Source: Acholoe squamosa
Taxonomy: Eukaryota; Annelida; Polychaeta; Phyllodocida; Polynoidae
Length of the DNA: 64,000 nt
NCBI GenBank assembly: GCA_949317995.1
Contig: OX439038.1
Location: 68,644,659 to 68,708,658, forward strand
Direction of reading: 5' to 3'
Position numbers and translations under genes: made by a program. Every line of letters starts with the position of its first letter. Position 1 is the first letter of the stretch. This document shows, in pieces, positions 2,276 to 64,000 of this stretch. Below the pieces are notes generated by a model that was not told the DNA's origin, ran no database searches, and saw only the letters and a list, made by a program, of their open reading frames with translations.

Positions 2276-2433
2276 ACCACCAACCAGACAGTACACACTA
2301 TAGACACCTAGAGAGTGGTGGTCTTTTCAAATATATTGAGATATAATTATCAAAATATTTATCCCAGAATACATACATGTGAGCCAGCAAGCAGAAAGGA
2401 TAGATACTGCGGGATTTAATACCACATTAATTT

Positions 2434-3407: not shown

Positions 3408-3635
3408 TAATTGAATATTAAATCTAAAAATGTGTGGTTTAATATGAATTATTCCTAAGAGTTAGTGCATTAAGCCGTAGGGGTACCCCACCCTTTTGCT
3501 TCGCTCTCTAACTCAAACAGCTAAGACGAATGTATACATGACAATCTGCAAGGGAGGTCCTGCTATATACCATAGCTACCCCTTTTAGGAATAAATCATA
3601 TTAAACTACACATTGTTAGGTTTAATATTCAATTA
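3408..3635. repeat. Foldback element with about 53-bp inverted arms
   Basis: The arm 3408-3460 begins TAATTGAATATTAAATCTAA. It matches the reverse complement of 3583-3635 at roughly 47 of 53 positions, with a loop of about 122 bases. It is probably a short non-autonomous DNA transposon or foldback; no target duplication is obvious. Confidence 0.75.

Positions 3636-6157: not shown

Positions 6158-6159
<2 letters not shown>

Positions 6160-6211
<52 letters not shown>
6160..6211. repeat. TA microsatellite
   Basis: An uninterrupted run of about 26 TA units. Open frames that read as poly-YI across it are artefacts. Confidence 0.97.

Positions 6212-6213
<2 letters not shown>

Positions 6214-7212: not shown

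Positions 7213-7215
<3 letters not shown>

Positions 7216-7261
<46 letters not shown>
7216..7261. repeat. TG microsatellite
   Basis: An uninterrupted run of about 23 GT units followed by TTTTT. Confidence 0.97.
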
Positions 7262-7264
<3 letters not shown>

Positions 7265-7299
7265 TCAACTGATTAACATTTATTTTGTTAAATTTACAA

Positions 7300-7880
7300 T
7301 TCCAAAAATGACTTTGATAATGAGCAGAACTGTCTTGGCCATCTTGTTTTTGAGGATCTTTTTTGCAATTAAATTCAACTATACAGCTTGTGGATGGTCT
7401 AGGCCATCCATTCATTTTGAGGTACACCATGATATGTAATGATGAGAATTGCATAATTTCCAGAGCTAGTTTGATCTTCACCTTCATTTTGAAGTATAAC
7501 AAGGCTAGAAAAGTTGTGAGTTTTATAGCTTGACTCAGAACTGACTTTAATTTTGGAATTTAACTCACCAAATGTCTTCTCACTTAGATGATGGCCAGAA
7601 CTGGTCCATGCTCTTGAATCCCTTCATTTTGGGGTATAGCATGATGGGTAGTGCTGATAATTGTGTGGTTTCTGGATTATCTAAAAGAATCAAGGTAGCC
7701 ATCTTGTCTTTTGGGATTATTGGCAATTGAAATTAACTATACCACTTGGACAGTCCTTGGAATGGTCTAGGCTATCCATTCCCTTCATTTTGAGGTAAAC
7801 ATGGCCAGGAATAGAAGTTATTATTAATTTTCTGGTATTTCTCTAAATCGAATGGCAGCCATTTTGTTTTTAGCATTTTG
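7300..7880. repeat. Diverged local repeats (CCATCTTGT...; CTTCATTTTGAGGTA...)
   Basis: The block GCCATCTTGTTTTTGAGG followed by GGCAATT-type sequence recurs near 7337, 7698 and 7857. The block GGTCTAGGCCATCC...CATTTTGAGGTA recurs near 7398, 7601 and 7763. The units are strongly diverged and unevenly spaced. They look like an old tandem repeat or piled-up copies of one interspersed repeat. Confidence 0.45.
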
Positions 7881-8346
7881 ACCCAAATGCAGCCATTTCT
7901 GAGCTTGGCAACAGTGATTTTCTAGTTCAGCATGCCGAAATTACCCAGAATAGCGCTGTTGCCGACTTGTACTAAAAATGCCACTAGGAGGATTTAGAGC
8001 TATATTTTATTGAATTGTCCCTGGTCTATCTAAGGATGATCTCGGGCACACACCTACATTCTTTTAGGACAACTTGACAGGGCAGAACTATTGTCAAAGT
8101 GTCCAAACGACCCCTAAAATACATGTAAAGTGTTTGCACTACGGTAGTAGCACTCCTCTACCTTCTTATACTCCATGCAGCACTAGTGGCTGATAATGAG
8201 AGTAGTGAAGAGCTATCCTCCTTATGTCATAAGTAATAGGATGTCCTACACCCGGTGATTACTGCTGGTGGAGAGAGCCAAGATAATGCAGCCATTCAGC
8301 GGCAGCTTCTTCTGGTGGCGTCTATCACTCACAATACTGCTTCTAG

Positions 8347-8411
8347 GAGTGGTTGTCTTTTCCAACAGGATGGGGAACAGAAGCAGGGTGGTTGGGCGGA
8401 TTCTATTTGTG
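8347..8411 (+). CDS. RGK-family GTPase gene A, G3-region exon (candidate)
   Basis: This 65-base exon has an acceptor after ACTGCTTCTAG and a donor GTAAGG at 8412. It begins in phase 1 and ends in phase 0, which fits the next exon at 9315 exactly. It encodes VVVFSNRMGNRSRVVGRILF plus V. Joined to the next exon it reads GRILFVDTDES, which occupies the place of the Ras-fold third beta strand and G3 motif (DTAGQ in Ras, a D-x-W-type sequence in vertebrate RGK proteins). The entry phase equals the exit phase of the N-terminal exon of the second RGK gene at 53631. The upstream exon with the N-terminus and G1 loop was not found. The call rests on phase, splice sites and fold position and is less secure than for the next two exons. 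Confidence 0.55.
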
Positions 8412-8631
8412 GTAAGGGTTCTCTAGTTAGCTCAGCAAAGTCCTGAAGATAAATGATTTCATAAACACACACACATAGTGTGTTGGATACTTTGCATGGT
8501 GAATAGCCTTCAAGAAGATTAGGTTAGACCTTGTAAACTTTAGAGCAATCAAATCATCTTTGAATCATAATGTAGAAGGAATATGAAGAATAACTAAAAT
8601 ACACCGCCAAAGTGACCTTAGTTGAATATAT

Positions 8632-8897
8632 CAGGAGGGCATTTCTCAAGATGGTAAGACTACACATATCCATTACGATTGAAACCCTCAAAATTAGAGC
8701 GCCGTTTGTAGGTAATGCATTACAACTGCTCTGTATGATCATCACTAAATGTAGTAATTACATAGGGTTTGGTAGGACAGTCGTACCAGTGCAACCATTA
8801 TTGACCACTAGATGCAGGGCTCTAATGGCATAAGATTTAGGTATTTCAATACTATTTGAAATGGGGTGGTCGTACCATCTTGAGAAATGCCTTCCTG
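8632..8897. mobile_element. Short TIR transposon (CAGGAGGGCATTTCTCAAGA ends)
   Basis: The left end CAGGAGGGCATTTCTCAAGA is mirrored at the right by TCTTGAGAAATGCCTTCCTG, with one mismatch in the outer 20 bases. The interior GGTTTGGTAGGACAGTCGTA recurs inverted near 14880 and again at 41415. The element is about 266 bp with no coding capacity. Confidence 0.8.
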
Positions 8898-9314
8898 GTC
8901 TAATCGTTCTAGAGGTTTTTATGATCATCTATCTATATGCATCCCTTTGTTTCTGACATTTATTTCTGTGCAACAAGTTGCAATGGGAGCTTATAGATAT
9001 AATGGTATTCTTCATTTATCACTTTGATTGATGACCATGAATCTTGATCTGTTCTCCGACTCTATCATACGGTGATGCCTTGAGGAACTCAGGTCATAGT
9101 GGGTTACGGAATGAATTCTAGTACGTGACATGGCACTGTCCATGTGGTGCTAGAATAGTAAGGTTTGAAGGAAAATCGTTGTATCTGATGGGACACCAAT
9201 TGATGCGATGTAATATTACTGATGATACCTATTTGAAGCACAATTAACCTTCTTTTGACTTAAATATGTAACTGTACAATACTTAACCTTCTCTCCAATC
9301 CTCATATCTTACAG

Positions 9315-9501
9315 GACACAGATGAGAGTGCCATTGACGCCCACCTCATCACATTTTCTGTTGAAGACAGAACCTCGTTCCGATTTGCTGAGGCACGGCT
9401 GAGGGAAGTACGGTGCAGAGAAGATCCACCAGGTGGCAGCATTGTCATCCTGGTGGCCAATAAGGAGGACCTTGTAAGAAGCAGAGATATCTGTGAGGAA
9501 G
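9315..9501 (+). CDS. RGK-family GTPase gene A, G4 exon
   Basis: This is an internal exon of 187 bases, with acceptor TCTTACAG and donor GTGAGA at 9502. It starts in phase 0 and ends in phase 1. The product contains DAHLITFSVEDRTSF, which matches the DAYVIVYSVTDKGSF segment of Rad/Gem/Rem. It also contains IVILVANKEDLVRSRDI, the G4 NKxD guanine-specificity motif (NKED here) followed by the RSRD/E stretch typical of the family. RGK proteins are membrane-associated Ras-like proteins that restrain voltage-gated calcium channels; that role is family knowledge and not shown here. The following intron (9502-18402) carries an antisense Ngaro element. The closest alternative is another Ras-like branch, but the C-terminal exon argues for RGK. 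Confidence 0.87.
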
Positions 9502-10409: not shown

Positions 10410-11319
10410 CTATAACATCACATCTAGAGCTAGTAGGTCTTGCTTAGAATCATGCAAGTAATTATATACCACATTGGACTTCCAATTTGCTCTCTTTTTA
10501 ATATCATCAACCTTTAACCCAGAGTTCTTTAGAAGTGTTGCTCCACCATGTCGGAGTGAATGAGTTGAAACTCTGTGGGGAATATTACATTTTATAGACA
10601 CAGCCTTCAACCTGGTATTAATATAATTATAAGTTAAAGGTTTGTTACATATATTGAACAATAATCCACTTCTAGACTCCTTACAAATTTCCAAGTATCT
10701 AGCTGGACAAAGACCAGAATTATCATTACTTTTTTAAATATACCACATAAGGTTTCCTACCATACTGGTCAGTTTTAGAAGACCTAACATCAATGCGAAC
10801 GCAGTCAGACGACAAAGACACATCTTTAGATTTAAAGTTATGAGGGGAATCTACCACATGACCCACTCTAAACACACCTCGGTAACACAATAGGATAGCT
10901 GACCAGAAGACTACATCCTCATACACAGACAAATTCAGTTTAGATTTGATCTTCAGCATATCACTTGGAGTCAAAGGATTAGTTCTAATAGAAGAACATT
11001 TATAATTACGTTCAATACCATCCAAAGTCTTTTTTACAATAAAATTACTACTATAATCAGAATAACCTTTTAATTTCTGATAATACCATAACGCGGACAA
11101 ATAGTTCCTAACAGAAATAGGTTTCATTTTATCCGATAAATATACACTATACAACGAGGCTTGAGAAGGAGAACAAGGTAGGGGATTAAAGTTAAAATCT
11201 TTACAAAATTTTTTGTACCTGCCAAACTGCTGTTTGCGAACCTTACGTGTGGACTCAGCCACGCCCCTGTACAAAAACCTTCTCCTTCTCCGCTCTAGAT
11301 CCCTCAGATCTGGAAGCAT
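10410..11319 (-). pseudogene. Ngaro tyrosine recombinase, one frameshift
   Basis: The first part (11319-10726, 197 residues, ATG at 11319) holds the SAM-like core-binding domain and the first catalytic residues: Arg in LLCYRGVFRVGHV (about 151) and Lys in RSSKTDQYGRK (about 182). It hits a stop just after a six-base A tract (T run at 10730-10735 on the + strand). The second part, in another frame to 10410, holds HSLRHGG (the HxxR), RANWKS (Trp in the second H/W position) and VVYNYLHDSK with the nucleophilic tyrosine. A one-base length change in the A tract would account for the break. That could be a true mutation, a sequencing error or a +1 shift. All catalytic residues survive across the two pieces. 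Confidence 0.88.
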
Positions 11320-13174
11320 AGCAACACATGTTATAACTAGTTAAAACATTTTTACATTTCAGAGGAACACCTTTGTAATCTAGTCTAGACAAATGGTCCG
11401 CTAAAACATTCTCCTCAGATTTAATATATGTTGCATATATTTCAATATTATGTATAAAACATAGCCAAAAAATTTCCCTCAACCAGGACATACACAACTT
11501 ATTCTTGGATCTACCAGTGTTCAACATGGCCAAGACTTGCATGTTGTCCGTAATGCAATGAACTCTAGTGTTGGAGAAATTCTTCACCCAGCGTTTAAGA
11601 CCTACCATTACGGGATAGAGCTCGTACATATTAATATTTCTATGGTGAATTTTCAGATTATCAAGTTTAGGGGCATGAACAAAATGACCCACACAGTCCA
11701 ACATAGGGTTAGAATCGCCCCAGGTACCATACAAATAATCCTTATCAAACCAGGCTCCAAAGCCCCGTATGGACGAATCAGAATACATAGGGGTACATTC
11801 ATTATCATTTAAAATGATATTTTTACAATTGAAAATTCTACAGAAATCCCTCCACCACAGCAGGTCATTTTGGGTTTCCTCATTAAGTTTAATAACACCC
11901 CTATTCCTGGCCTTTGCACAAAGATCAAACAATCTCCTGCTGAAGGTTCTACCACCACGTACTACCTGGGAACAAAAAGACATCAAACCACCAATCTTCT
12001 GCAATGTCTTCTTAGATACGAATTTTTTACCCAAACACTCGTCTATAGCTGAAGTCATTTTATCTAGCTTACTCTGCGGGAGCGACAACTCCATAGCAGT
12101 AGAATCAATGGTTATACCTAGAAAAGTACACACCTGGCTGGGCTCAGTCACCTTCTCTTTAGATACCACAAACCCTAGATATTCCATACATTCAATCAGG
12201 GTGTTCCTTTTGCGTAAACAATCCTCCTCAGTCTGAGCTATGATAATAAAATCATCCAGGTAATTTACTATCCTATCTACACCGTAAAATTTTGCAATTA
12301 TAGTCAAAAAGTCAGATATTCTACTAAATATATATGGAGCACACTTTAGACCAAATGTCAAACGGTTACTTTCAAAAAACTCATCTCCATTACCAAAATT
12401 CCACCTGAAGCCTTGATAGCCTACATGTGGGCCATAAACGCTAATGTTTCTATATGCAGACTTCAAATCCACCACACACATAAAGTCATTTCTATCAAGT
12501 TGGCAGGTAACAGTGTTAATAGAGTTATACGAGAAACTTTTGGACGTTATACTCATAAAGTTATTAATAGAGATATCTGCTGGCATACTGCAATCAGTGA
12601 TGGGACGAAGCTTACCATTAGATTTTTCCACACCCCCTAGGGAGTGAATACATTTGGGTTTACATTCAGTTTTAGTAACCAGGCCTTGGTTCAACTCCTC
12701 CACAATAATACTACACATCTCGTTATAAAATCTATCCTCTAAAATAGACTTATAATTTTTACAATCATACGTTGTATCACACCCTGGGTCAATAATTTTG
12801 AAACCCTCGGTAAAACCACACCATAGAAAATCAGACTCAATCTGATTGATATTAATAAGGTCTGACTGCCTGAGAAAACTAGCCAGCCGACACGGGAGTA
12901 TCTGAGCCTTCCTACCATAAATGAAATGCTCACACATACATACCCCATTTACACAACTGTCATAGACCCTGATGCTGGGTCTATTTAAACATTCCACCGT
13001 AAAAAGTGGTGCAATCTCGCCCTGTACTGGGCAGCTATGAGTAATAAATAAATTCTTTGATAGATCACAAGAATTATAAATATTTACATTATCATTATTA
13101 ACATTATCACCCGGAATGATAGAAACGGGAGGCTTAGGAAGGTCTACCGTACATACTACACTAAAATCAGGCAT
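11255..13174 (-). CDS. Ngaro reverse transcriptase-RNase H
   Basis: About 639 residues. ATG at 13174 is preferred over the TTG one codon upstream. The RT palm is present: LRPITDCSMPA (about 190-200), VVDLKSAYR with the first catalytic Asp (about 237), LTFGLKCAPYIFS (about 273-285), and YLDD (306-309) with the paired catalytic aspartates. RNase H follows with MYSDSS (Asp about 466), MYELYPV (Glu about 519), CITDNMQ (Asp about 544) and VLADHLSRLD (Asp about 594), so all four acidic residues are kept. The 3' end overlaps the recombinase ORF by 65 bases in another frame, which suggests coupled translation or a shift. No stops interrupt it; it looks functional. Confidence 0.95.
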   Translation of the reverse strand: MPDFSVVCTVDLPKPPVSIIPGDNVNNDNVNIYNSCDLSKNLFITHSCPVQGEIAPLFTVECLNRPSIRVYDSCVNGVCMCEHFIYGRKAQILPCRLASFLRQSDLININQIESDFLWCGFTEGFKIIDPGCDTTYDCKNYKSILEDRFYNEMCSIIVEELNQGLVTKTECKPKCIHSLGGVEKSNGKLRPITDCSMPADISINNFMSITSKSFSYNSINTVTCQLDRNDFMCVVDLKSAYRNISVYGPHVGYQGFRWNFGNGDEFFESNRLTFGLKCAPYIFSRISDFLTIIAKFYGVDRIVNYLDDFIIIAQTEEDCLRKRNTLIECMEYLGFVVSKEKVTEPSQVCTFLGITIDSTAMELSLPQSKLDKMTSAIDECLGKKFVSKKTLQKIGGLMSFCSQVVRGGRTFSRRLFDLCAKARNRGVIKLNEETQNDLLWWRDFCRIFNCKNIILNDNECTPMYSDSSIRGFGAWFDKDYLYGTWGDSNPMLDCVGHFVHAPKLDNLKIHHRNINMYELYPVMVGLKRWVKNFSNTRVHCITDNMQVLAMLNTGRSKNKLCMSWLREIFWLCFIHNIEIYATYIKSEENVLADHLSRLDYKGVPLKCKNVLTSYNMCCYASRSEGSRAEKEKVFVQGRG

Positions 13175-13219
13175 CAAAATATCAGAATCTAATGCAGGAC
13201 CTTGCCTAAGTGAACTTTC

Positions 13220-14248
13220 CTAGTCTTTTTTGTTCTTTTGACACTTGTCTTTGCCATGGTTTGACATGCTACAAATCTCACAAATATGACGATACCTGCA
13301 CGGGTCTTCCCTGCAACCCTCAGCCCTGTTGAAAGCATAACAGGTCCGGTTGGATTGTTTTGATTTGAACGACTTAGGTTTAGACCCACCCGCCTTCTGC
13401 GCTTGCACCGTTCCGTCATAAGAAAGGTGCCTCAGAATATCCTCACTTTTAACATCGCCAAACGATCCCACACCTTCAAAATTAGCCCTATTCTTGACTG
13501 CTGAGTCGTATGCTACGAGAGCCTTCAACGTGTATATTTTGGTAGAGGATTTTTCCACCAGAACTTCAATATGCTTAACCACATCGAACACATCTTCACC
13601 CTCCTCCAACAATTGCTTCACCATTCTGACGTTAACGATCAATAGTTTCTCGATACTATCCATTTTTTCACCCTTTTTCAAGAAATTTTTCTGGTCAAAC
13701 GTACCTCTAGACTTTGTAGCATGTCGGCGGTTACTCCTTGAAGTATTAGACCCAATAGAGACCGATGAATCCTTCGAAACACTACGGTATGAAGACGATC
13801 TACTCGAAGATCCAAGATGGCGACGACCTGCCCTGTCGCCGTGGAGACCCCGGTAGTCAGGCGAGCGCTGTCGGCCACGCCCCCGTTGCTTGGTTACCAT
13901 GTTGACTGTGGAATGTTTATCAACACCACCACGTGTACGACCCGTCTCAGTCTTGCATGCCGCCGCTGAAGTACATGCTCGTTTAACCGCCTGGTTCTCC
14001 AATAAGGACCGGATGTCTTCAAGCTGCTGCTCCATACGAGTAGTACGTTCCTCCAGCTCCCCGATATACGTCTGGTCAACAGGCAAATCCAATGAACCCC
14101 CAGTAGCAGCTGGGGAAGATGATCCATGACCACCCCCATTGGAATCTACACTGCTCGAAATCCTAGAGTTGGCAATCTTCCTTGGTTTTTTAGGCGACTT
14201 CTTGGTCTTAGACCTTTGTGTGCCGCTAGTTGTTCCTTTCCTACCCAT
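13220..14248 (-). CDS. Ngaro gag-like ORF1 protein
   Basis: 342 residues from an ATG at 14248. The N-terminal third is Lys/Ser-rich (KKSPKKPRK), followed by a likely coiled-coil stretch (ELEERTTRMEQQLEDIRSLL, residues about 65-85) and an Arg/Ser-rich middle (SSSRSSSYRSVSKDSS). The C-terminus has two zinc-binding clusters: CYAFNRAEGCREDPCRYRH (CX8CX4CX3H, from residue 303) and CEICSMSNHGKDKC (CX2CX4HX4C knuckle). This composition fits a nucleocapsid that packages the element RNA. It is followed 42 bases later by the RT ORF. The frame is intact. Confidence 0.88.
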   Translation of the reverse strand: MGRKGTTSGTQRSKTKKSPKKPRKIANSRISSSVDSNGGGHGSSSPAATGGSLDLPVDQTYIGELEERTTRMEQQLEDIRSLLENQAVKRACTSAAACKTETGRTRGGVDKHSTVNMVTKQRGRGRQRSPDYRGLHGDRAGRRHLGSSSRSSSYRSVSKDSSVSIGSNTSRSNRRHATKSRGTFDQKNFLKKGEKMDSIEKLLIVNVRMVKQLLEEGEDVFDVVKHIEVLVEKSSTKIYTLKALVAYDSAVKNRANFEGVGSFGDVKSEDILRHLSYDGTVQAQKAGGSKPKSFKSKQSNRTCYAFNRAEGCREDPCRYRHICEICSMSNHGKDKCQKNKKD

Positions 14249-14294
14249 AATGATAGGTTAAACACCGTATTAACTTGGAAAAACGGATAAAACC

Positions 14295-18402: not shown

Positions 18403-18680
18403 AGGGTATAGTTCTCGCTAAGAAGCATGGATGTAAATATACCGAGATTTCAGCCATCTTGAACCACAAGGTAGACGAGCTTCTTGTCGGGATAATCCGT
18501 CAGATCCGACTCCGACCAGAGCGAGGCCTGGATGCTTCTGGTGGAGTGACGTCATGCGGGGTCCAGATAGATCAGAAACAATATGGCTGCCTCCCAAAGG
18601 CAATCTTTAAACTTTTCCGCCGACTGCTGCCAAGGAGGGATGACGTCAGTAAGTCATGTGAGAACCTTCTCACGTTGTGA
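18403..18680 (+). CDS. RGK-family GTPase gene A, C-terminal exon
   Basis: The acceptor is CATTCCATTTCAG; the exon starts in phase 1 and ends at TGA 18678-18680. It encodes KYTEISAILNHKVDELL, the G5 region (EISA for ETSA) and the HNVxxLF helix of RGK proteins, followed by GIIRQIRLR (GVVRQIRLR in vertebrate Rad). The tail has a basic hydrophobic stretch, AIFKLFRRLLPRR, and ends SKSCENLLTL. This is the conserved RGK C-terminus (SKSCHxLxVL), known in the family for membrane, calmodulin and 14-3-3 contacts. The tail lacks a CAAX box, as is usual for RGK. Length and motif order are normal for the family except for a somewhat short tail. Confidence 0.92.
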
Positions 18681-23983: not shown

Positions 23984-26037
23984 ATGGTGGCACCGCGACC
24001 AGGGTAAATTTTCTTTCAGCTGTTTCTTTTTAGACCATTTTTTGCTCGTTTTTTCATCACTATCCTTTAAAAAACATGAATCAGTAAGTCGCTGATTATG
24101 TCTAATCAGTGAAGGCAATGGTATTTTTGTACAATGTGGATATTGTTTATTGTATGTAATTCACGTCGTATGTACACGGTATATGGTGGAAAATATTCTT
24201 GGATAACTTGTCTAATTCCTTGGTTCTTTTTTCTCCCTATAGGTGTCAGCCCCTGCCTAACATCGCTACCTTCCTGGCCGGCATGCCGCAGCGTGTCGCC
24301 ACTGATGGTTTCTATATCCCGTCACCAGCGCCTACCACCAGTACCACGCCCAGTTTCAGCTTCCCCATCACCAGTGCTCTGGAACGTGTCCCCCATGCCT
24401 GCACTACGCCCCCCAACACGCCTAGGGGGCTGGAGGTTGCCGCTACTATCGCCAAGATGGGGCAGCGCGTAGCTGATGACGGCTTCTACATTCGCTCTCC
24501 AGCTGAAGGCAGTACAGGTGTCACCGCCTTCACCTTTGATGACCTGGTGCCGTGCACAGTGGGTCGTGACGTACCCTGTGACGTAGCTGACATAAAGACG
24601 CCGCCGATCACACCCAGAGGCCGACAGGTGGCGCTGATGCTGACCAGTATGCGACGCAAGGGGTGTCGGGACGCTGCCCCCTACGTCATGTCACCGCTGG
24701 TGCGTGACCTTGACGTAACACGACAAGATGACCTCGCAGCCTCCAACGTTTTCTCCTTCTCCGACGCTGATCTTACCTCCCTAATGACGCCTCAACAATC
24801 TCTACCTACTCAGGAGGTTCATGTCACTAATGACGTGACGTCACGAACTGACCTCTTTGACCATCACTACAATCGCCATCCTCTGCCATCGCCACTCTCT
24901 CTTCCGGTGCGACAAGGACAAGCTTTAGTAGCGGATGACCGGAAGCAGGACGACACGTCCTCCCAACACGTCCTCATCATTGAGCCTGTGTCGTCGTTCA
25001 CGTCTGCCCTGTCAATTTCTCCTGACTTCGACATCAGTGCCCCAGAGTATGGCCTGAGTCCAGCAGAGACAGCAAAACATGCCAGGAGGACGTGTCGGCG
25101 ACCACAGCGCTACATGGACGTAGACGTAGTTCAACCTGTCCCGCCAACACCACCGCGCACAGTACGTCCACGACGTGTCCAACCACGCCAGAACATCAGC
25201 AGAGGCAGCGTCCACAAACCTTGTGAGTAAATTCACAAACTTGTATGTACATGTACATCTGAATCACATGCGGTATGCCAAGCCAGGTGACATTTATATA
25301 AAGTCGCACGTAATTTCGTTGACCATTAGCCTATTCCACTAAACCACTGCCATGTGTTTAATCTGATCAATCAATTCCACAGCAAAGAAGAAGAAACCTA
25401 CCAAGCAAGATCCCCCCAGCATTGTGACGACACCTACAACCAGAGATCAAACGGAAGACGCAGACTCCGTCCCATCCGGGTGGTCGCCGCGCCCCAAGCA
25501 GCGTGCTGGGCGAAACCGGAAGTCGTTGCCTTGCCCTATGTGTGATCGGGTGTTCACGACGGCGTTCAGCCTGCGGCAGCATGCCAATACACACACCGGG
25601 GCACGGCCCTATGTGTGTGACATCTGTAACAAGGACTTTGCACAAGTGAGCCCTTTAGGCCTCTTATGAAATGCAGACCTCAAAAATTGCCATCGCATTG
25701 AGGCACCCATCATTTCCCATCAAACATTCTATTTACATGCAGTTGTTGGCTCTGCTGTTGATATCTATGCGTATCTCCATTTAGTATATTGTTGCATATT
25801 GTCTAGTACCATTTTATCATTTTCCAGGTGACGACCCTGCGCACACACCGCCGGCTACATACAGGAGAGCGCCCCTACCCTTGCAGACACTGTGACAGGT
25901 CGTACAGCGACTACTCCTCCTGGACCAAACATGAACGGACCCACACAGGGACACGCCCCTACAGCTGTGATGGGTGTGGCACAGCCTTCACACAGTCTGG
26001 GAACCTCAAGAGGCACCAGAGAAGCTGCAGGGGCTAG
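23984..26037 (+). CDS. C2H2 zinc-finger protein, four exons, 490 residues
   Basis: Exons: 23984-24003, 24243-25222, 25383-25645, 25828-26037. Donors are GTAAAT, GTGAGT and GTGAGC; acceptors are CCCTATAG, TTCCACAG and TTTTCCAG. All phases (2, 1, 0) join without a break. ATG 23984 lies in ACCATGG; ATG 23972 is in frame upstream and possible. Residues 13-158 hold three copies of a motif [TPPxTPRG]-VA-xxM-xRVAxDGFYIxSP (copy 1 lacks the TPRG start), each followed by FSF/FTF. The middle is Ser/Pro-rich. KKKKPTK (335-341) is a likely nuclear signal. Fingers: C384/C387/H400/H404, C412/C415/H428/H432, C440/C443/H456/H460 and C468/C471/H484/C488 (final ligand Cys). The third intron splits finger 2. 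TGE/TGA/TGT-RPY linkers mark a DNA-binding array. It is probably a sequence-specific transcription factor; the orthology group was not recognised. Confidence 0.9.
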
Positions 26038-43276: not shown

Positions 43277-43935
43277 TGTAGGGGAATGTGATTTCCCTGC
43301 GCACATTGTGCTGACTCTCAGGGGCTGGTCGTCGTGTAATCACATGTCCCCTCTCTGTGTCACCCCAGTCCAGGTGTGGGTGGAAGGTAGAAAACATTGT
43401 ACGGGGGAGTAGCTTAGTGGTAGAGCAATCGTCTGAAGGCTGAGAGGTCCCATGTTCAACTCCCGGTTTCCCTAAACGTTTTCGCCGACCCCTACAATGG
43501 CAGGGAAACCGAGTGGTCCTGACCCGCGTGAGGGGGGGCTACGGCACTCGGTACCTGGGCTAGTGTGACACGGCAGGCGCTTCAACCGCCCTGTACTTGT
43601 ACCGGCAGTTGACCAGGGAATCGAGAATGCCTCGCACTGCTTGATAAAGCCCAATCATCTGGTTGGTAGGAGAGCCGGGTTGCTGGTCAGCAGTGGTCGA
43701 AGCTGGTTGGGGGCTGTGTAGGGGAATGTGATTTCCCCATGCGCAATGTGCTGACTCTGAGGGGCCGGTCGTCGTGTAATCACATGTCCCCTCTCTGTGT
43801 CACCCCAGTCCAGGCGTGGGTGGAAGGTAGAAAACCTTGTACGGGGAAGTAGCTCAGTGGTACAGCAATCATCTGAAGGCTGAGAGGTCTCAGGTTCAAC
43901 TCCCGGTTTCCCTAAACATTTTCGCCGACCCCTAC
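43277..43935 (+). repeat. Duplicated tRNA-derived repeat (two 219-bp copies, 440-bp offset)
   Basis: Copies at 43277-43495 and 43717-43935 are about 93% alike by eye. Each ends in a tRNA-like module with an A box (TAGCTCAGTGGTA in copy 2) and a B box (GGTTCAACTCC). In copy 2 the ends GGGGAAG and TTTCCCT can pair as a seven-base acceptor stem. The anticodon stem does not fold well and the loop CTGAAGG would give GAA, so these are tRNA-derived repeats (SINE-like) and not functional tRNA genes. Confidence 0.75.
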
Positions 43936-53294: not shown

Positions 53295-53622
53295 CTACGT
53301 CATACGTTACAGGAAGTAACAGCATGTCACACAGGAAGTGACATTAGATCATCACTGAGTGGAGTAACGTCACTTTGACATACAGGAAGTGATATTACGC
53401 GACATATGGAAAGCCTGATCATGTCAGACAGGAAGTGACATTGCTACGTCATACATGGAATAATTGTACGTCACACAGGGAGTGGTATAACTACTTCTTC
53501 AATAATATTGACATCCTGGTGGACACTGTTATTCCAGTATACAGGAATCAGGAATATTGCGTTATATAGGACGTGACGTCACTGCACAATACATTGCCAT
53601 TGCTACGTCACACAGGAAGTAA
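53295..53622 (+). promoter_or_regulatory. Array of ETS-like and CRE-like motifs before RGK gene B
   Basis: ACAGGAAGT occurs five times (about 53309, 53332, 53382, 53428, 53612), with a variant ACAGGGAGTGG near 53474. TACGTCA or AACGTCA half-sites lie near 53295, 53366, 53455, 53467 and 53604, and a full TGACGTCA at 53574-53581. Several are joined as ACGTCAxACAGGAAGTGACA. This looks like a degenerate tandem repeat that creates composite ETS/CREB-type sites. Factor binding is inferred from motif alone. Confidence 0.6.
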
Positions 53623-53630
53623 CCGTTACC

Positions 53631-54657
53631 ATGGAGAAGGCAGCAGTTTCAGTCACCTTTCAGGTGCCAGAGGACGGTAAACCAGTGGCAGCAGGGGGAG
53701 GTGAGCGGTCATCAGCAGCTCCATTACCTATGTCACCCAGACCACGACCAGCCCTCCGTACACGTGCCTTTACTACAGGGTCCCTGTGGGAGATCCTCAG
53801 TAATGCTCGATCAGCTCCTGCTCATGTAACAAGCTCCAACCCATGGCACACTGGAGGTAGTAGTGTCTCCACAGGGAGGACCTCAGAAGGACAGCGCCAT
53901 GCCACTCATAGCAGACTTATAACTGACTATGTGCATATGGAGAGGCGACATCGGCGCCGACATTGGAGTGAGTTTGATGCAGCAAGTGGTGGGGCTAGTC
54001 CAAGAGGTTCTGGTTTCTCTCCATCCCCTTCAGCATCCATCGCCGACCTTAAATCAACCTCCAGCTCCGACATGCTTCTCAAACCAGGAGGTATCAGGCA
54101 GGGCGTCCCAAGGTCTTCCCGCGAGGTCCAGATGCGCCTGGACCCAAGGATGGGTGGGTCGTCGGCAGGTCGCCGGAGTATTCAGAACCAGAACCGGAAC
54201 TCCCTACTAGCCAGTGCCTACATAAGTTCCTCCCTCACCTGCCTCTCCTCCCAGGGCAAACGTCGCTCTCAGAGCGCCCCAGCTGCCGACAGCGAACTGG
54301 AATTCCCCGATGTAGACGGTGCGGATGGCAACATCCTGTTACCCTACTGGCGCACCCCACAGTTATTCACGGGCGGCGGTGGCGGGATGTCCTTTCTAGC
54401 CGACTCCATGCGCTCTATATCCATTTACCGGAAGTCATCAGTTAACAGCACCGAAAGTGCCGACGACGAACCTGGGGGTGGGAGCCGGGAGGGTTGTTTG
54501 ACGCCGAGTGGTACATTTAACGTTAGCTCTGGGTCGTCGGTGAGTGTTCCGTCCTACAGACTGGCGGTACTGTGCGTAGACGACAGCTTCCGGTCGCGAC
54601 TGATTGAGCACTTTGTTGGACTAGGCGATGTGGACGATGATGATGACGTATTTGCTG
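53631..54657 (+). CDS. RGK-like GTPase gene B, first coding exon (5' part only)
   Basis: ATG at 53631 lies in TTACCATGG. The exon encodes 342 residues and ends in phase 1 at a GTGAGT donor (54658). Residues 1-300 are a Ser/Arg/Gly-rich, probably disordered extension (PMSPRPRPALRTR, RRHRRRHWSEF, GKRRSQSAP). Long N-terminal extensions are usual in RGK proteins. From residue 308, SYRLAVLCVDDSFRSRLIEHF aligns with the beta-1/P-loop/helix-1 of Rad/Gem (YKVLLLGxxGVGKSALxRIF), but the GxxxxGKS residues are replaced by CVDDSFRS. An acidic DVDDDDDVFA follows. Downstream exons were not found and probably lie beyond 64000. The RGK assignment rests on this short match, the architecture and a donor phase equal to the entry phase of gene A's 8347 exon. 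It is moderately sure as coding and less sure as to family. Confidence 0.72.
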
Positions 54658-57192
54658 GTGAGTACATGCTTCTATCCCTCCTATTTATTAAAAAAAAAAA
54701 ATGTCGAGTGTATAATTCTACACTGGAACCGACTTTGGTTCTTTGAACAGGAGATGTTGGCTTCATTCCATTCAGTTGTATACTAAGACTTCAAAACAAT
54801 TGAATACACAACGCGATCATTATTTTAGAGGGCAAATATTAGCTGAAAGTGCAGTAGGTGATTCTGCAAAGTTCTGAACAATACAATGTATTGTCATATT
54901 GATGGCAGTATTGATGGACTGGGCCTTTGCTATTTTTTCTATAGGATCGGGGCGTATATCTCTTTTTGCATAAAACCACTTTGTAGATAAATCACTACAG
55001 TGAAGAAATGAGAGACCCTTATGTGAATAACTTATTCATGAAGACATATTTCACCGTAGAGATGTGGGTTACTAGGTCAACCTACGATGGAGCAACTCAC
55101 CATCCTATGCATGTTTTTCTTCATAATATCCAGTGAAAGATGCAATATGCTTTGCGATGTTTCAACCTTCACATGTTTGAAATGAAATAATCTCTCATGC
55201 ATTACACAAATACAGAGAATCAAAGAGATTGACTTGTCCGTTCCTATTTAGTTATTCATTTCTCACTAATATTGAAAGGCAGATATTCCATTTAACCCTA
55301 AGTAAAACAAATGTGAATTTTATCATTTTACTTTGGAAAACATTGTAAAAAGATAATGCAGAAGATTACACTATTCTTATGTGCTCCTCAACTGTGTGTA
55401 CAACACAGGTGCTCCATCATTGTAGAATGCTAAATAAATCCCTTGTGTACAAGAATTTCCTTAAATAGTGCATGCACCTATATTTTAGATACACTATCTA
55501 CCTGCCGACCCTATAGTGTTATTTAGACAAGCTACGTTACAGAGCTATTCTGTGTAAGATCTTCAAAGTGAACACACAGTAGCTATAGACCTGTGCAACA
55601 GGAACTGGGTACATCTGAATAAATGTGTGAGAGGAGCTTTAATTTTGATCATTCGAAGATTCATGTCTCTGTCAGTTGTATAGAGGCAAAATATTCCATC
55701 AGAAGACTCCTAGCTAACATGAACAACCTGATACTGATTTTGATCCTTCCTTGCCACCAGGATTAGGTTCTCTGGTCTTCATAATACACACTGATGCACT
55801 AGTGAATTTACTGGCGGCCATTACATTAGTGCATCATGCCAACCATCAAGGATCCATGAACCCAAAAGGATAGGCATAATGCATGAAGACATCACTGACA
55901 AGTTACTCGAGAGAGTTACATCCATGCATCAAGACCACCACTGTATATATGAAATGTGTTTAGTGGACAATACCTTAGTGGACATACCACTAACTATCAG
56001 TGAGCAGAGGCTCCAGATCACACCTCATGTACGTAAGATAGTTGGGCCACTGTAATTCAATTATCATCGATAATCAATAACTAATGGCCTTCCCTTAACA
56101 CGTAGGAGGGAGTCAGCTTAACCTCGCCGCTGCCTGCAAGTGTGAATCCTCACACTCAGATAGAGAGGTTTAGTTAAGAATGATAAGAACGAGCCAAACT
56201 ATAGATTTGTATGGCAATATATTATAGCCATTCCTCACAGTGGCGTGAAGAAACTATATCTCATTTTCCATTCCCCCGTTCCCCACTCGAAATCACAGTC
56301 GTAAGGTTGAATGAACGATCCTGACCTTCGCCAATGAATTTCTCGTTGATTTGAACATGTAACATGACATTCTCAAATCGTGCTGATATCCACCACAAAT
56401 CGTGCTGATATCCACCTCAAATCATATTGATATCCACCTCAAAGTGAGCAGTTGATATGCAGTTGATATTTAGGAAAAGACCGTGAGTCACCAGAACTGT
56501 GTAATAACTAGAAGCACCGGTATCATTTATGTATACATTGGCTGGATAAGGACAAGTGCTATGCACAATTTCTTTTTTTTCTGGTCACCGTGTTTTATTA
56601 TAGGGGACTGTATGGGAGTTCAAAATGATATTGCAGAGGGCAAAAACTGCAATGGGGCTGTAATTATAAATGCCTCAAAAGCATCTAAGTGGCGACAAGG
56701 ATAAGGTTATTTCATATGTAAAGTATCTTTCCTCCCTTTCGACCCATCTTTTTGTAATCATTCATCTCTAGAGGGTCCTATATTTCCAACCCTTCTAGCC
56801 ACGTAGGCGACATCTGTTTCTGGATTCTAGAAAAGGATACTTAGAAGAGAGGTAGCTAGAGAAGTTTTACCCATCTCAAGGAAAAGCCCGCAACAAAACC
56901 GAATGTTTTTGTTTTCTTTGATTTGCTGTTGTATTTTTTTTCTTGTTTTTTTTTTGTTTTTTTGGGGGGGGGGGTAATCCTGTCAAGGAGATCAAACAGC
57001 ACCATCCAAATGGGGTAGGATGAATTGTATATCTATATCCGTTGTCGATTCGACCCTTATAGATAGTCTGCTAGACCTCTCTTAGAATAAAGCCATTTTG
57101 GTAGCTGGAGATTATCAGCTTAAGCCTCCTAATATCTGGCTAGTTTGTAAATCTGCACCAGTGCATTGCACCAGCTTCTTTTCTACTGAGCA

Positions 57193-57404
57193 CACTGAAA
57201 AAATTATTGTTGAATCGACAAGGTAACCTCATAAATCTGAACAGTGAACCGTAATTGCTTTGCAGTGAACCACTGTAGTTTTTACACGAAGTCCCAGGTG
57301 GCAGTATGTGGTGCTGCAAGGAACCTCTGTGAAAATAACGGTGGGTCTCTGGCAACTTTGGGACAAAGATTCTGTTGTCATTTTGACAACTTTCTTTTAC
57401 AGTG
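57193..57404 (+). mobile_element. CACTGTAAAAAA-type element, copy 3
   Basis: Starts CACTGAAAAAATTATTGTTG and ends CTTTCTTTTACAGTG. It shares TCTGAACAGTGAACCG and TCTCTGGCAACTTTGGGACA with copy 1 at 40970. Confidence 0.78.
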
Positions 57405-58149
57405 CACGCAGAATCTGATGTGTCATGTAGGTTTCCTGACATCATGTGGATGTATAGTATTTCAAGTTATTTCAAGTTATTGTGGTCGGAAGGAGAAGTC
57501 TTCAAACGACCCAAAAATTATTCTTGCTTTAGATAAAGACAGCGTTTCTTGCCAAAGAGGTTTATACAGGAGCTAAAAATAGAACTGTCCATACAAATGT
57601 AGATTATACGCCCTGCATCTACCTTTCATACTGGGCGATGTTGCAGAGAGAAAGAAATACTTTAAGGTTTAGGCTACATATGGCTGCAAAACATCTCAAG
57701 TGTCGACTGAGATGAAGGCTTTATGCGACGCAGGTGGCACAGGATATATGAAAGGTACATTTATCTATATAAATCTTGTCTCTCCCAGTCTCTAATCTTT
57801 CTATAATATCTACCTCCCTGTCTTCTCTCTACATATGGTCTTATATTTTTATCCTCTTAAGCCCTGTGTGTGACTCCTGCCTGTGCACACACACTGCAGG
57901 AGGGATATTGCAGGGGTGTTTCTATATTGGCTGGATAAGGTGTACACTATGTCAACCGCAATGAGGATTCTGCTGACAATTATGAAGTGTGTGTAAACAC
58001 TGCTATGCCATGCCTCTACGAGACCATATTGAATATCTGAATACAGATACCTATATTGTGAAAAATTCGCATCATGGCAATTCTGTCTCATGTCGATGAC
58101 TTTTGAAAAACTGTGGGAATTTGATATCAAGTAATCCAATGTTAGATAC

Positions 58150-58560
58150 ACTGGTAGTAGTAGCCAGGGTTATTTTACAGCAAAAACCCTTGGCAACGTT
58201 GGTTCCAATACATTTTGCTGTAAATCTACAGGAGATGAGTTGTTGTAATTCTACAACACAATCCACAGTAATCATACAGTAACAACCACTGTAACCATAC
58301 AGCAAGATCATTCAAATCTACAGAAACATATGTTGTAAATTAACAGCAATATATATTGTAGAATTACATAAATATGTCTTGTAAAATAACATCAATATTT
58401 TCTGTAAATGAACTGCAAGTTTTGGTGTAAATGAACTGCAGAATAAACTGTAAATTTACAGAAACTTTTGCTGGCAACTGAGGTTCCAGCAACTATTGCT
58501 GTAAATTTACAGAAACTAGGAGTGTAGAATTACAGCAGGAGGTGCTGTTATTCTACAGGA
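58150..58560. repeat. TACAG/CTGTA-rich quasi-palindromic block
   Basis: CTGTAAAT, TTTACAG, TGTAGAATTACAG and related words recur roughly every 15-25 bases in both orientations over 400 bases, with CTGTAAATTTACAG palindromes near 58448 and 58500. Likely a decayed CACTGTAAA-type transposon with dense subterminal sites. Confidence 0.6.
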
Positions 58561-60183
58561 ACCGTATTGTATATTATGTATAGGCACTGCTCTATACTCT
58601 ACCAGTGAGGTGATTCTATTATACAATCCCCATCATATTTTTACGTGTGCACTCTGTGTATGCATTGATACTATAAAACATGCATGCCTGATGAAGACAA
58701 GAATGTCTCCAATCCCAGTGAAGTGCAATCACTGAGAGCAAGAGAAGTAGACAAGCATCTCTCCCAAACCATTTCATGGTCAGCCAGTTTTAACACTGGA
58801 CTAACCTAAAGGCAGGTAGGTCTATGTTAACTTCAAGTTCAGAGTCCAGGTACTTGTACATACAATTTAGACACAGGTGTGGTGTCTTTGGTGTATATTA
58901 CTTGTTGTTCCTAGTTTCTTCTCAGATAACCTTATACATCATCTATTGTGCACAATGTTAGATTGAACCCATTATTGTATTGCAATTAATTGATAAGCTA
59001 TGGGGACATTGTTGAATTGAGGTGGCACTATATGCATACATTCTTAACAAATGGTGGATACTGCTGCCCCCCCAGTTGCAGACCTACAGGTAAGGCTATT
59101 TTGGTAAGGCCTTTGTGGGTCACTCTGGTGCTGAGTGACTGGCTAGCCTAGGGTATACAAGAGTAATTATACAGGACAACACACTGTACACATGTGCCTA
59201 CAGGTAGAAGCCTGTCACTAAACAGTGACACTCAGTGTATTTGAGAATACTGCTCTTTCCCCTTTTGATTTACATAGAACAATCCTGTTATATAACCCCA
59301 ACTCCTTTCAGTGATAGTGACCCAACAATATCATTAAATCAACATGACAAATTTCTTCACGTTTGATTTCATCCCTTTTTAGATTTTCATCTGTAATTCA
59401 AGTCATTTATTTAGGATGATTTGTCACAATATCAACTAAACATGGATAGGAAGTGAAGAGAATAAAGACAGGGAGGGAGAAGAGAGCAGGGACAGATGGA
59501 AACAGAGACACCACACAACAGAGACAGAAATGATATGCATCTTACAATAATAACTATATATTATTCTCTCACTTTTTCTAGCCTTTCCTGAATAGCAGAC
59601 CCATTGCATCACAGAAATCTCATAATATTATCATAGCCATCAGAATCCACTTAGTTGACATAGTGTAAAGCTTATACAGCCAACATAGGAGAAAGTACCA
59701 CTCCAAAATCTGTCCTGTGTTGTGTATGCAAAGACATATGGCTTGTTTTCTACACCGAAAGATCCAAGGAGGAAATTGGGGCTGTCCGGAAATCATCACA
59801 TCATGCCATCTTTCACATTTCATCTAGCTTTGTTTTTGGAGCTGTTCGCATTCTGGCACAGGGCCAATATCAACCGCAATGTGCCTTATCTCTGGTGCTT
59901 CCAGCCCATATCCAATAAGTCATGTCTGCCACAGTGCCACACATGGAGCTATGGGTGGATGGACAGTGGATGGATGCTCTTGCTACCGCACACGCACCCG
60001 GAGCAGCCTGCCAGGCAGCCCCCAGCAGCCTGGCAGTGAGAGGGCCCTAAAGTAGTCAATTTTAGAGTGATCTGGACTGTATTCTAATACACAGTATACT
60101 ATTTTTTTTCATTTTATCAATCACATTTTGTATGTCTAGCCATGAAATAACCCCAGATTCACCATTTCTAAGATAATTTGATA

Positions 60184-60497
60184 TACCATAATACCTCGCA
60201 TATAAGGCGCGTCTTATACACAAGGATGCACCCCTGGTGCGCCTTATAGAAGCAAAATTATTTAGAAGAGAATTTTCTCTAAAGTTTCCTCAATAATCCC
60301 TTGACCCTGTATTATGGTAAAACAGGATAGGGGAGACCCTTAGATGGCCATAGGTCTTTGAATTTTGAAAATCCGTTGGTTAGAACAAAAGTTCTAACAT
60401 TTTTTATTTTTACATTCACATCTACAAATTCTAGGTGCACCTTATACGCAAGATGCACCTTATATGTGAGATACCTTATATGTGAGGTATTACGGTA
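60184..60497. mobile_element. Short TIR element (TACCATAATACCTC ends)
   Basis: Left TACCATAATACCTCGCATAT and right ATATGTGAGGTATTACGGTA match inverted at 18 of 20. Internal CTTATACGCAAGATGCACC and CGCGTCTTATACACAAGGAT repeat the end motif. Confidence 0.85.
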
Positions 60498-61176
60498 GTT
60501 TAAATCACTAAGAAACTAAAGCATCTTCTAAATAAGTCACATTTCAGACAATTGATCATCGTGGAAAAGTGGCACCATAACTGATATATTTTCTTCTTCT
60601 ACACTGTAAGGAAGTGTATAGACTTTATGTTGGTGAAATATAATCATGATCTGGACACAGGATCTTGATTAATTTTAGGCTCATATGAAGAAAATGTTAC
60701 TATTGCAGATGGTTTCACTTTTTATCTCAGTGCACATACCCCCATCCATAATCAAACCAGTATGATAGGAAAAGCAGCTTTTGAAACCATGGGAAAGGGG
60801 TTGCATTCAATATGGAGTGAATTCAATCATTTGTTCCAAGTTCTGCTATGGACAAACTAAACTGTAAACATTGAATTTTCTTTCACTTTTTAAATGCACA
60901 TGTATAGACAATCTTATATATTCAAAAATGATGTATTTCTGGACATGGGATCTAAAGATGATCATGACCCTTTAACATATATCGACCCTTATCTACCAAC
61001 TGTGACAGTACTGAAGCTCTGTCTATGATAATATTATAAATATATGACTACAGACCCCAAGGTAATATTGTTGTATCCACTTTGTTCTATAGTAACTGGA
61101 ACACTTCTTTTACCTCTTCTGTAAAACTTGAAAATGAAGTTACAACCTTCTTGCAGTAACAAGGTGACGAGATGTT

Positions 61177-61540
61177 CAGGAGGCCATTCAAAAGATTGGG
61201 AATCAATTCTTTTGGAGGTGCTATTCCCAAAACAGAATTGACTGACCTCAAGGAATCAATTCTTGGGTAGGAAAAAGGTAGTTGGTCATAGAGGTGGTTT
61301 ATGAGTGGTTGGGAATTTGTGAATACTTCCCAATTGAGAACCAATTCCTGGCTAGTTCCTTCCTCCAATTCCATGGCTTATCTACTATGGGAACCAATCA
61401 TGGAACCAGTTCCCCCAACGTTTTGTAATGCACTGTAATTCAGAGCCACGGAATTCCATTACAGTATAAGGTCTGAATTCGTCTCTCTTGGTGGAGAATC
61501 AGGAAAACAGATTTCCCAATCTTTTTGCAACAGCCTCCTG
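61177..61540 (-). mobile_element. Second copy of the AAAAGATTGGGAA TIR element, inverted
   Basis: Ends CAGGAGGCCATTCAAAAGAT and ATCTTTTTGCAACAGCCTCC mirror each other with a few mismatches. The interior (GGAATCAATTCTT, TAGTTGGTCATAGAGGTGG, GGAACTGGTTCC-like blocks) is the inverse of 27822-28116. Confidence 0.8.
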
Positions 61541-61949
61541 CAATGTGCCCGCAAGGGCTATCAGCCAATTTTCAAATTGGAATTCACCGTCTTGGTTACT
61601 GAACATGTGGGGTGCAATCATCTGTCGTTATGGGGTTATTGTGTCTGAATATATGTGGGGTCCAATGTCTGTGGTTGTGGGGTTATTGTGTCTGAACATG
61701 TGGGATGCAAAGTGTATTACTCAGTAGGGGGTAGTAGGTGGTGATACTGTCTGTAATATGCGCAGACTAATGGGGTATTTCTGCCACACACAATCATTGC
61801 AAGGTTGTACAACGATCTCTTCACATGCATGCCACAAGGTCATTTTGAACCATTTGAAAGACATTGCTTGTGGGATTAACCCCACAAGCAAACAATGACC
61901 CCACAACGTAGCTTTGTACTTATAAAACCCCCACAGTGTAGCTCTAGTA

Positions 61950-62130
61950 AACACAGACAGACAGAGACAGACAGACAGACAGAGACAAACAGACAGAGAC
62001 AAACAGACAGAGATAGAGAGAGGAGAGACAGAGCCAGACAGCAATAGAGGGGCAAAAAGAAATAAAGACAGAGACAAAGGGAAACAGGAATAGAAGGGAG
62101 GTGAGAGAAAGAGGGAGACATAGAGAGACA
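61950..62130. repeat. GACA/GAGA-rich simple repeat
   Basis: Irregular ACAGACAGAGACAAACAG and AGAGAGA stretches. Open frames on the minus strand (SLSLSVCLCLSVCL) come from this composition. Confidence 0.85.
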
Positions 62131-63793
62131 GAGACATAGGGACAGGGAAGGGCAAAGGACCTGGGGAATTGGGGAAGGATATATTCGACCTAATCCTGAT
62201 CGTAAACAAGAGGGAAATGGTAATAAAGACAAGGTCCTTATTACAGACTTCCTCTTGCTCTAATCCAACCAAGTAAGCTACCTGGCTTTCGGGCTACTGG
62301 GCAATTGTTTCTGATTCTATTATATGATATTTGTGATGGAATGTTACCAGATCATTCCTCATCACAGAGTCAGCCCCTTTTTGTATTCAGGCTTACCTTT
62401 AGTCCATTGTAAGGGAGTGGCTTATGGTATTCATGGCACCTAGGTAGATACAATATTGTGGGTATTCCAGGTCTGTAGCCCTCCTCTCAGAATCCGTTTA
62501 TAGTGACATTTCTTACAATCTAACCAACTTACAATAGTGAACATACTTCTGGGGTAGAAACTAACACTGGTCCAGGGGCAAATGGCCAATAATCTTAGGT
62601 GAGGGCGTATAATTCTCTCAAGAATTGCCTTCCTATGGGCCCGGGATGGCCCACAGAATTTGACAGAGACATTTTTATCTGCATATAGCCATATTATATC
62701 ATTAGAAAGATAAGATTGTTAAGAATCTGGCCAGTCTGACTAAGTTATGTTGTGGATTGATGAGTGTACTTGAAATTTCCTCTATAAAAATGAGTAAATT
62801 AGTTGCTCTGGGCCAACAGTTTTAGCTCTGGGCTCCTTTTCTAAAGCTATATGGGTCCGGTTGGCCAGTGGCTGAAAATGTTAGTGTCTACCCCTGTACT
62901 GTTTCAGGGGCTATGTTGTGGAGATGGAGGACTTGGGCATTGGTTGAAGAAGATGGGGGAAGGGTGGTAGGAGGAGTACATGTATTTGGTGTAGGAGGCA
63001 TGCTGTGGTGTAGGAAAGAAGGGGATAAGAACCCTTTGAGGGAATTGGGGGATTGGATAGAGTAGAATAGGGGCTTAATCTGATTGTTGTGGATGGGCCA
63101 TAGGTTTGGGAGAGGTGGAAAAGAAGAGCATTGTAGGAGAATAGGGTATTTACTGCTCAAGGATATGAGGAAAGCTCAGAGGGTGAATGAGGATAAAGGG
63201 AAGGAGGGAAGACGTTTGGGAGATAAAAGGCGGTCAATGGTGTGATAAGGCAGATAGGTAAAGGAGGGAGAGGAGGTACAGGAGGATGTGTGAGGGAGCA
63301 TAGGTAGCTCTATAGTATACAATTAGGATACGATCTATCTACCCATTGTGCTGCACAAAGAAGTGCTGGGCAAGGTGGTATGATGCAGAGATTCCTTTGT
63401 AGAAAACTGGCTTCGGGGTTGTTCCATAGCAGGGGCACTGCAGAAGTGTGACGTATTTGTTGTATTGAACGTAAACAGTAGCTTTGATGCAGGGTTGGTA
63501 GTGTGGTAGGTCGGCTTTCATGAGTCTCACATGGATCAATCTAGAAGAGAGGTTCTTCAAAGACAGGCTGTAGGGATCTAGTGATAAGTGGGATTAACAG
63601 TGGCTAGGTTCTGTGAGGCAGTACCTAGGGGCAGTGCAAGCTTATCCGTTGGGGTAGAATAGGATGGATAGGTTTATCTGTTTGAGCTTGGACTTAGGGG
63701 CATGTAATTGGTCAGGCACTATAAGGAGTATGTATATAGTGAGTGAGTGAGTCATTTCCTCTCAATTGATGGGGGAGGGGTTCATATGTTAGT

Positions 63794-63830
63794 TTTGTTG
63801 CTGTTGTTGTTGTTGTTGTCGTCGTTGTTT
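63794..63830. repeat. TTG trinucleotide repeat
   Basis: GTTGTTGTTGTTGTTGTCGTCGTTG run of about a dozen units with two TCG interruptions. Confidence 0.85.
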
Positions 63831-64000
63831 TATTACTACAGTATCAAAAGCCCATGAGGGGCCTAATAGTTATATCAATCAGATCTTTAACAACTCTCTT
63901 TTAGAAGGCTGGTAGTAATATCACTTTATTATTTGATGCCCAGTTTCACCCATTGGATTATTGTTGTTTATATGACAAGGAAGGCCTCCATCTAGAAGCA

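Follow-up and report, generated by a model that had tools for sequence, protein, structure and literature searches.

Introduction

The RGK (Rad/Gem/Kir) GTPases, represented by Rad, Gem, Rem and Rem2 and by Rgk1-3 of Drosophila, share an N-terminal extension, the order of a Ras-type domain, a basic C-terminus, and the C-7 motif. Herein, we describe RGK-X (X), a predicted RGK-type gene of the annelid Acholoe squamosa, whose first exon lies in a window of 64,000 nucleotides (C4:68644659-68708658, C4 being contig OX439038.1 of a 1.48 Gb assembly in 63 contigs). As predicted, X is alike in these features. In X, however, G1 has no Gly-Lys, G4 has no Asn where one is normally found, and G5 has no Ser-Ala; the positions of the Arg and His reported to contact CaV-beta are changed too.

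The N-terminal extension of the Drosophila RGK proteins is ca. 250-500 residues long (PMC4081519). In the RGK family, G1, G4, and G5 are described as strongly conserved, and G4 N/K and G5 E/S as absolute in the species examined; outside the vertebrates, conservation of G1 and G5 is lower (PMC4081519). Milder G1 changes are thus already on record.

PseudoGTPases are divided into class i non-binders, class ii binders without catalysis, and class iii, which are catalytically active, and the RGK family was placed in class iii as diverged but catalytically active (PMC5593906). The class (i) examples p190RhoGAP pG1/pG2, CENP-M, and fungal dynein LIC have Ras-like domains with degraded G motifs and hence no nucleotide binding (PMC5593906), which X resembles by prediction; unlike X, they are not RGK proteins. 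The accessible portion of PMC5593906 names no class (i) RGK. Beyond that paper, no work pairing RGK with pseudoGTPases was found in the literature searched: the text of PMC13236570 contains no RGK, and PMC10979978, in its accessible portion, cites only the pseudoGTPase review on this subject.

Mutants with decreased GTP binding showed reduced CaV-beta binding and mixed channel effects, and inhibition by Rem2 was apparently insensitive to the bound nucleotide (PMC9074095). Regulation by the nucleotide state, as in classical GTPases, may not apply to RGK members (PMC10979978). The dependence of RGK proteins on nucleotide is disputed, and what the C-7 motif does is said to be unclear (PMC4081519). 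A natural RGK protein without G motifs but with C-7 would separate both questions by evolution rather than by mutagenesis.

Results and discussion

The first exon of X ends in an RGK-like segment without a P-loop

Exon A of X (53631..54657, plus strand) contains 342 codons and one further base. The frame runs from an ATG at 53631, in the context GTTACCATGG, which looks good for a start codon, to 54656 with zero stops. The stop-to-stop frame around the exon has 389 codons, and by a rough estimate 0.002 frames of this length are expected in the window at the base composition of exon A. The exon ends at a strong donor (GCTG/GTGAGTAC, the slash marking the boundary), and the intron starts at 54658 in phase 1.

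The final 34 complete codons of the exon read YRLAVLCVDDSFRSRLIEHFVGLGDVDDDDDVFA. Together with the first base of the split codon they form the segment SYRLAVLCVDDSFRSRLIEHFVGLGDVDDDDDVFA (54552..54657, plus strand), which aligns without gaps to the beta1-G1-helix1 region of RGK proteins. CVDDSFRS is found where GxxxxGK[ST] is expected, and an acidic run follows. About 308 residues, rich in Arg, Ser, and Gly, precede beta1. The initial annotation, which was made from the letters alone, had described an open exon of this kind with CVDDSFRS, an acidic run, and an Arg/Ser-rich extension of about 300 residues, and the analysis bears out each of these points.

The significance of the alignment was measured against windows and shuffled sequences. 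In the ungapped comparison with human GEM (PDB 2cjw), 9 of the 34 residues are identical and the score is 27. This score was reached by 2 of the 117,694 stop-free six-frame windows taken from the 64 kb and a 260 kb flank, the segment itself included, and by 7 of 200,000 shuffles. With RAD, 7/34 residues are identical, and 18/117,694 windows and 22/200,000 shuffles scored as high. When five RGK references were used together (GEM, RAD, and the paralogues RGK-B, P1, and P2 of the same contig, with P5 excluded), none of 50,000 shuffles reached the score. When RGK-B was used alone in a gapped alignment, 299/20,000 shuffles did so. The RGK alignment of exon A alone is a fair lead and does not amount to proof.

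We considered whether the P-loop of a normal RGK gene had been misread or misassembled, and found nothing in favor of this. Neither of the other two frames across the CVDDSFRS block encodes a P-loop and both hold stops, so a single frame slip cannot restore GKS. G3, G4, and G5 are degraded as well, and these lie in three further exons at distances of up to 61 kb. An error of this kind is hardly credible.

Candidate downstream exons and the joined protein

Exon D (C4:68760132-68760406, plus strand) lies outside the window, 61 kb downstream of exon A on the same strand, and has a clean acceptor. It ends in LFNRFFRRTLSTKSCDNLLAL and a stop. The tail TKSCDNLLAL is a terminal C-7 motif, with Cys at -7 and an S/T and a basic residue before it. 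Only chance-level matches were obtained by tblastn with GEM and RAD across 260 kb downstream, and the exon surfaced only when paralogue tails were used. In the window and the 260 kb flank, the C-7 pattern has three matches, namely RGK-A (a paralogue within the window), X, and one on the minus strand; no match was found in 19.4 Mb of shuffled sequence. The minus-strand match, KSCERLVNL and a stop, was dismissed as a C-7 exon since stops lie close upstream. The initial annotation had expected exons with NKxD and a C-7 tail to follow in frame. The tail is there in frame; NKxD is degraded and reads LLTGDYKSDI.

No match was obtained when 54657-64000 was scanned with Pfam in three frames, and the exons found later begin 48 kb past the window. 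Exons B and C were searched for as open AG...GT stretches between exons A and D with the junction phases of RGK-B. Exon C (C4:68758450-68758612, plus strand, outside the window) reads DVSTLHDVDAWVVVHN...MLLLTGDYKSDIQKT and ranked first among 227 phase-compatible candidates over the 60.8 kb that separate exons A and D. Over ten RGK templates it has a mean score of 21.9, which 0/3000 shuffles reach; the distinct candidate ranked second has 3.4. P1-P6 are among these templates and played no part in selecting the exon. Its best score of 32 was reached by none of 4178 control candidates (207 kb, both strands), with a control maximum of 26. Reversed templates reached 30 in this first score test, owing to a tandem repeat, and 9.5 on the ten-template mean.

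Exon B (C4:68756900-68756982, plus strand, outside the window) was the top candidate against exon B of RGK-B with a score of 22; the next distinct candidate scored 14 and controls scored up to 20. The exon has 83 nt in X, RGK-B, and P3, and 89 nt in P6. Against RGK-B, P3, and P6 together, 5/3000 shuffles reached the mean score of the X exon. Judged by these scores, the RGK match appears to go beyond the controls clearly for exon C and modestly for exon B.

Joining of exons A-B-C-D predicts a protein of 515 residues, or 517 with an alternative exon C donor six bases further. The domain and tail of X (207 residues) were compared by hhalign with ten RGK sequences, in which the P4 row is short of about 3 residues at the start of exon D. 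The score was 55.4 with a P value of 4.8e-8 over 189 columns at 25% identity. Sixty within-exon shuffles that kept the last 12 residues reached 32.8 at most. Without the last 12 residues, X scored 37.4 and 60 shuffles reached 22.4 at most. Because similarity had guided the choice of exons B and C, the selection was repeated in six control stretches of equal length. The resulting six chimeras, with the real exons A and D and the best control exons B and C, scored 21.3 to 32.1.

The predicted X and its paralogues share a gene layout

A GEM query of the genome gave 70 matches at E <= 10, from which the best candidates only were scored; these revealed pairs of RGK exons along C4, including one pair within the window. 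C4 carries eight recognisable RGK genes, and with X there are nine RGK-type genes, more than the four RGK proteins of vertebrates. RGK-A lies in the window and RGK-B at 69.03 Mb (C4:69027048-69039162); P1-P6 are at 40.9, 75.4, 65.2, 58.4, 72.3, and 19.8 Mb. RGK-A, X, RGK-B, P2, P3, and P6 are on the plus strand, and P1, P4, and P5 are on the minus strand.

RGK-B is a canonical family member, with a Pfam Ras match of 1.8e-27 and GEM as the best PDB match (4.2e-27); GEM, REM1, and RAD are the PDB chains at E <= 1e-22 among the matches listed. The predicted X has the layout of RGK-B, with four exons, junction phases of 1/0/1, an exon B of the same length, and a long Ser-rich exon A. RGK-B ends in SKSCDNLMVL. 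The phases of exons B and C of X were imposed in the search, and only those of exons A and D are independent.

Exon A was read for RGK-B, P1, P2, and P5, with the genes assigned by order and strand. These four exons are 284-360 residues long from the chosen start Met, compared with 342 in X. They are Ser/Arg-rich and end in a FRVLILGDHGVGKTALLHQFMTSEYMGATDTSF-like block with a phase-1 donor. From its first aromatic residue, the block has 33, 33, 33, and 32 residues in RGK-B, P1, P2, and P5, and 34 in X. The phase-1 junction of exon A of X is within one or two residues of its place in 4/4 of the paralogues read. Phase 1 is found at the exon A donors of P1, P2, and P5, and at the end of exon C in RGK-A and P1-P6. 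Within the exon A of X, MRSISIYRKSSVNSTESA at residue 260 is a possible remnant of RSF..KG..NRGDSF of the paralogues, and 13/500 shuffled exons score as high.

Several results weigh against X being an RGK protein. When the exon A segment is compared by itself with the profile of ten RGK sequences in hhalign, the match is not significant, as 7/100 shuffles reach its score, and exon A has no family match by phmmer and Pfam. Exons B and C were picked by similarity, and exon B is not the top candidate once GEM and RAD templates are included, when other candidates reach 23. Exons A and D joined without the last 12 residues do not rise above shuffles (11/100 reach the score), and a hidden Markov model of exons C-D matches X only at E 0.015. 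The joined protein has no Pfam match, and its PDB matches are unrelated with no Ras-type chain. On whether a Ras-type G-domain can be recognised in the sequence of X, the results are divided: Pfam gave no match, and hhalign gave the match reported above, with two of the exons selected by similarity. In the tree, the branch of X has 10 changes per column, and its placement is unusable.

The lack of a family match for exon A, the choice of exons B and C, and the long introns also favor an assembly by chance, in which exon A would come from an unrelated gene and the C-7 exon would be either a stray one or the end of a different RGK gene. However, the order, the strand, and the three junction phases all fit, exon A has the architecture of the family, and the chimeras are far below the real joined protein. 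No rival RGK-like 5' exon above chance was found between exons A and B with GEM, RAD, and X as queries. The distance from exon A to exon C is 58 kb in P1 and 310 kb in P2, if they are assigned rightly, so the 57.6 kb intron of X is not odd. We regard a chance assembly as quite unlikely. The identification of the joined X as an RGK protein rests jointly on the order, strand, phases, tail, and selected exons.

The G motifs are degraded and the tail is kept

The motifs of X were compared with those of the paralogues. At G1, VGKT is present in 4/4 of the paralogues read, and X has SFRS within CVDDSFRS. At G3, FID is present in 3/3 of the paralogues read, and X has FSN, a change of D to N. ANKx[DE] of G4 and [IV]SA of G5 are present in 8/8 recognisable paralogues; X reads LLTGDYKSDI at the first and LPS, within ELPS, at the second. 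RGK-B, the paralogue with the same layout, has GDHGVGKT, FID, ANKSE, and EVSA, whereas all four are degraded in X. The CaV-beta contact positions (equivalents of Gem R196 and H225, mapped from the accessible text of PMC4081519 and placed by eye on the alignment) hold R in 8/8 and H in 7/8 paralogues; X has K and no H.

The family as a whole has not lost the P-loop, since four paralogues of the same genome have VGKT. As G1 GxxxxGK[ST], G4 NKxD, and G5 ExSA are absent from X, it is, judged by its motifs, RGK-derived and not a working RGK GTPase. Class (i) pseudoGTPases have one or more G motifs missing, and G1, G3, G4, and G5 are degraded in X. The idea of a possible pseudo-GTPase, raised from G1 by the initial annotation, is supported in a stronger form.

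X has kept the C-7 cysteine, the basic stretch before it, the sequence RSQSAP, the exon layout, and the long N-terminus. The C-terminal [KR]SC[ED]NLxxL is present in 7/8 recognisable paralogues and is lost in P4. The tail of X is closer to the paralogues than its domain is. RSQSAP (residues 212-217; 54264..54281, plus strand) fits RSxSxP, the mode-1 14-3-3 motif.

The joint alteration of G1, G3, G4, and G5 could also come from a relaxed or dying RGK copy, the G motifs of which are going together and the product of which has no function. The saturated branch of X and the presence of P4 as another degraded family copy point in this direction. The frame argues otherwise. The 515 codons have no stop or frameshift, every junction has usable splice sites, and the tail has diverged less from the paralogues than the domain. 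At 0.037 stops per codon, from the composition of exon A, the chance of 515 codons staying open is about 4e-9. Open codons over this length despite saturated divergence argue against a long neutral decay, and a decaying gene is an unlikely explanation. Selection has probably maintained the frame of X over most of its past, which does not bear on present selection.

Proposed function of X

We favor, with reasonable confidence, the reading that X is a diverged RGK member that has lost the residues holding nucleotide and Mg2+ and may serve as a fixed-state scaffold or competitor. A more specific proposal is tentative, and we give it a little less than even weight. An expanded family on one chromosome would have given rise, in X, to an RGK free of nucleotide. 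It would be a class (i) pseudoGTPase in which the RGK tail and the N-terminal control region are retained.

In the proposed mechanism, exons A-B-C-D would be spliced together, and the protein would adopt a Ras-like fold without nucleotide, with its tail holding it at the membrane. X would be controlled via its N-terminus (basophilic and 14-3-3-type sites) and via its abundance or expression, not via a GTP cycle. It would then act as a fixed-state scaffold, or compete with the canonical RGK paralogues for partners that they have in common. We infer the membrane location and the failure to bind phosphate, both of which the initial annotation had suggested. The scaffold or competitor role is suggested by the literature on the nucleotide dependence of RGK proteins. 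Because the Arg and His positions reported to contact CaV-beta are altered, X more likely acts independently of CaV-beta or purely as a competitor than through a normal CaV-beta-dependent block of calcium channels.

X would thus be an RGK protein moved from class iii to class i of the pseudoGTPases. If this is true, the C-7 tail and the flanking regions carry an RGK function that is independent of GTP and of the canonical CaV-beta contact, and X is the fixed-state scaffold or antagonist of the RGK family.

The 5' flank of X

The region directly upstream of the start codon (53296..53630, plus strand) contains diverged repeats with words like the cyclic AMP response element (CRE; TACGTCA, TGACGTCA) and ETS-like words (CAGGAAGT). 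Five of the seven CAGGAAGT words and 4 of the 11 TACGTCA words of the window are found here. The region is a possible promoter or 5' untranslated region of X. No CRE or ETS words were found upstream of P1, P2, P5, and RGK-B, where 111-348 bases were examined at each. Gem is inducible by cAMP and calcium, and together with the words upstream of X this makes an activity-dependent expression possible.

Other RGK loci on C4

The RGK-A gene is represented in the window by its last two exons. Exon C (9315..9501, plus strand) starts in phase 0, ends in phase 1, and has the G4 sequence ANKEDLVR. Exon D (18403..18680, plus strand) has the G5 sequence EISA and ends in SKSCENLLTL and a stop. Its exons A and B, which were looked for in window positions 1-9314 and not found there, probably lie to the left of the window.

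Exon A of X was also considered as part of RGK-B, which was ruled out as RGK-B has its own canonical exon A. Four loci that match Ras-type queries (L041-L044) were not counted as RGK, since no C-7 motif was present in the stretch read.

In P2, if it is assigned rightly, about 310 kb lie between the G1 exon and the G4 exon (C4:75120061 to 75430032), and gene finders with intron limits would therefore split such genes. P4 (C4:58374400-58374900) keeps NKGD and EVSA; its C-7 cysteine is lost, as it ends in NDIENLFTP, and the CaV-beta contact His is lost as well. As read from these motifs, P4 is another degrading RGK copy, in a manner opposite to X.

Other features of the window

Open frames resembling reverse transcriptase and recombinase adjoin each other on the minus strand at 10729-14257 and look by eye like a DIRS-type mobile element. 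At 736-1723, a 493-bp unit occurs in two copies with 97% matching, each with a partial frame that is integrase-like by eye. Rfam identified tRNA genes at 43403-43474 (35.6 bits) and 43843-43914 (41.3 bits). A 356-codon open frame at 24160-25227 on the plus strand lies in a GC-richer stretch and has an internal repeat element around GLEVAATIAKMGQRVADDGFYIRSP.
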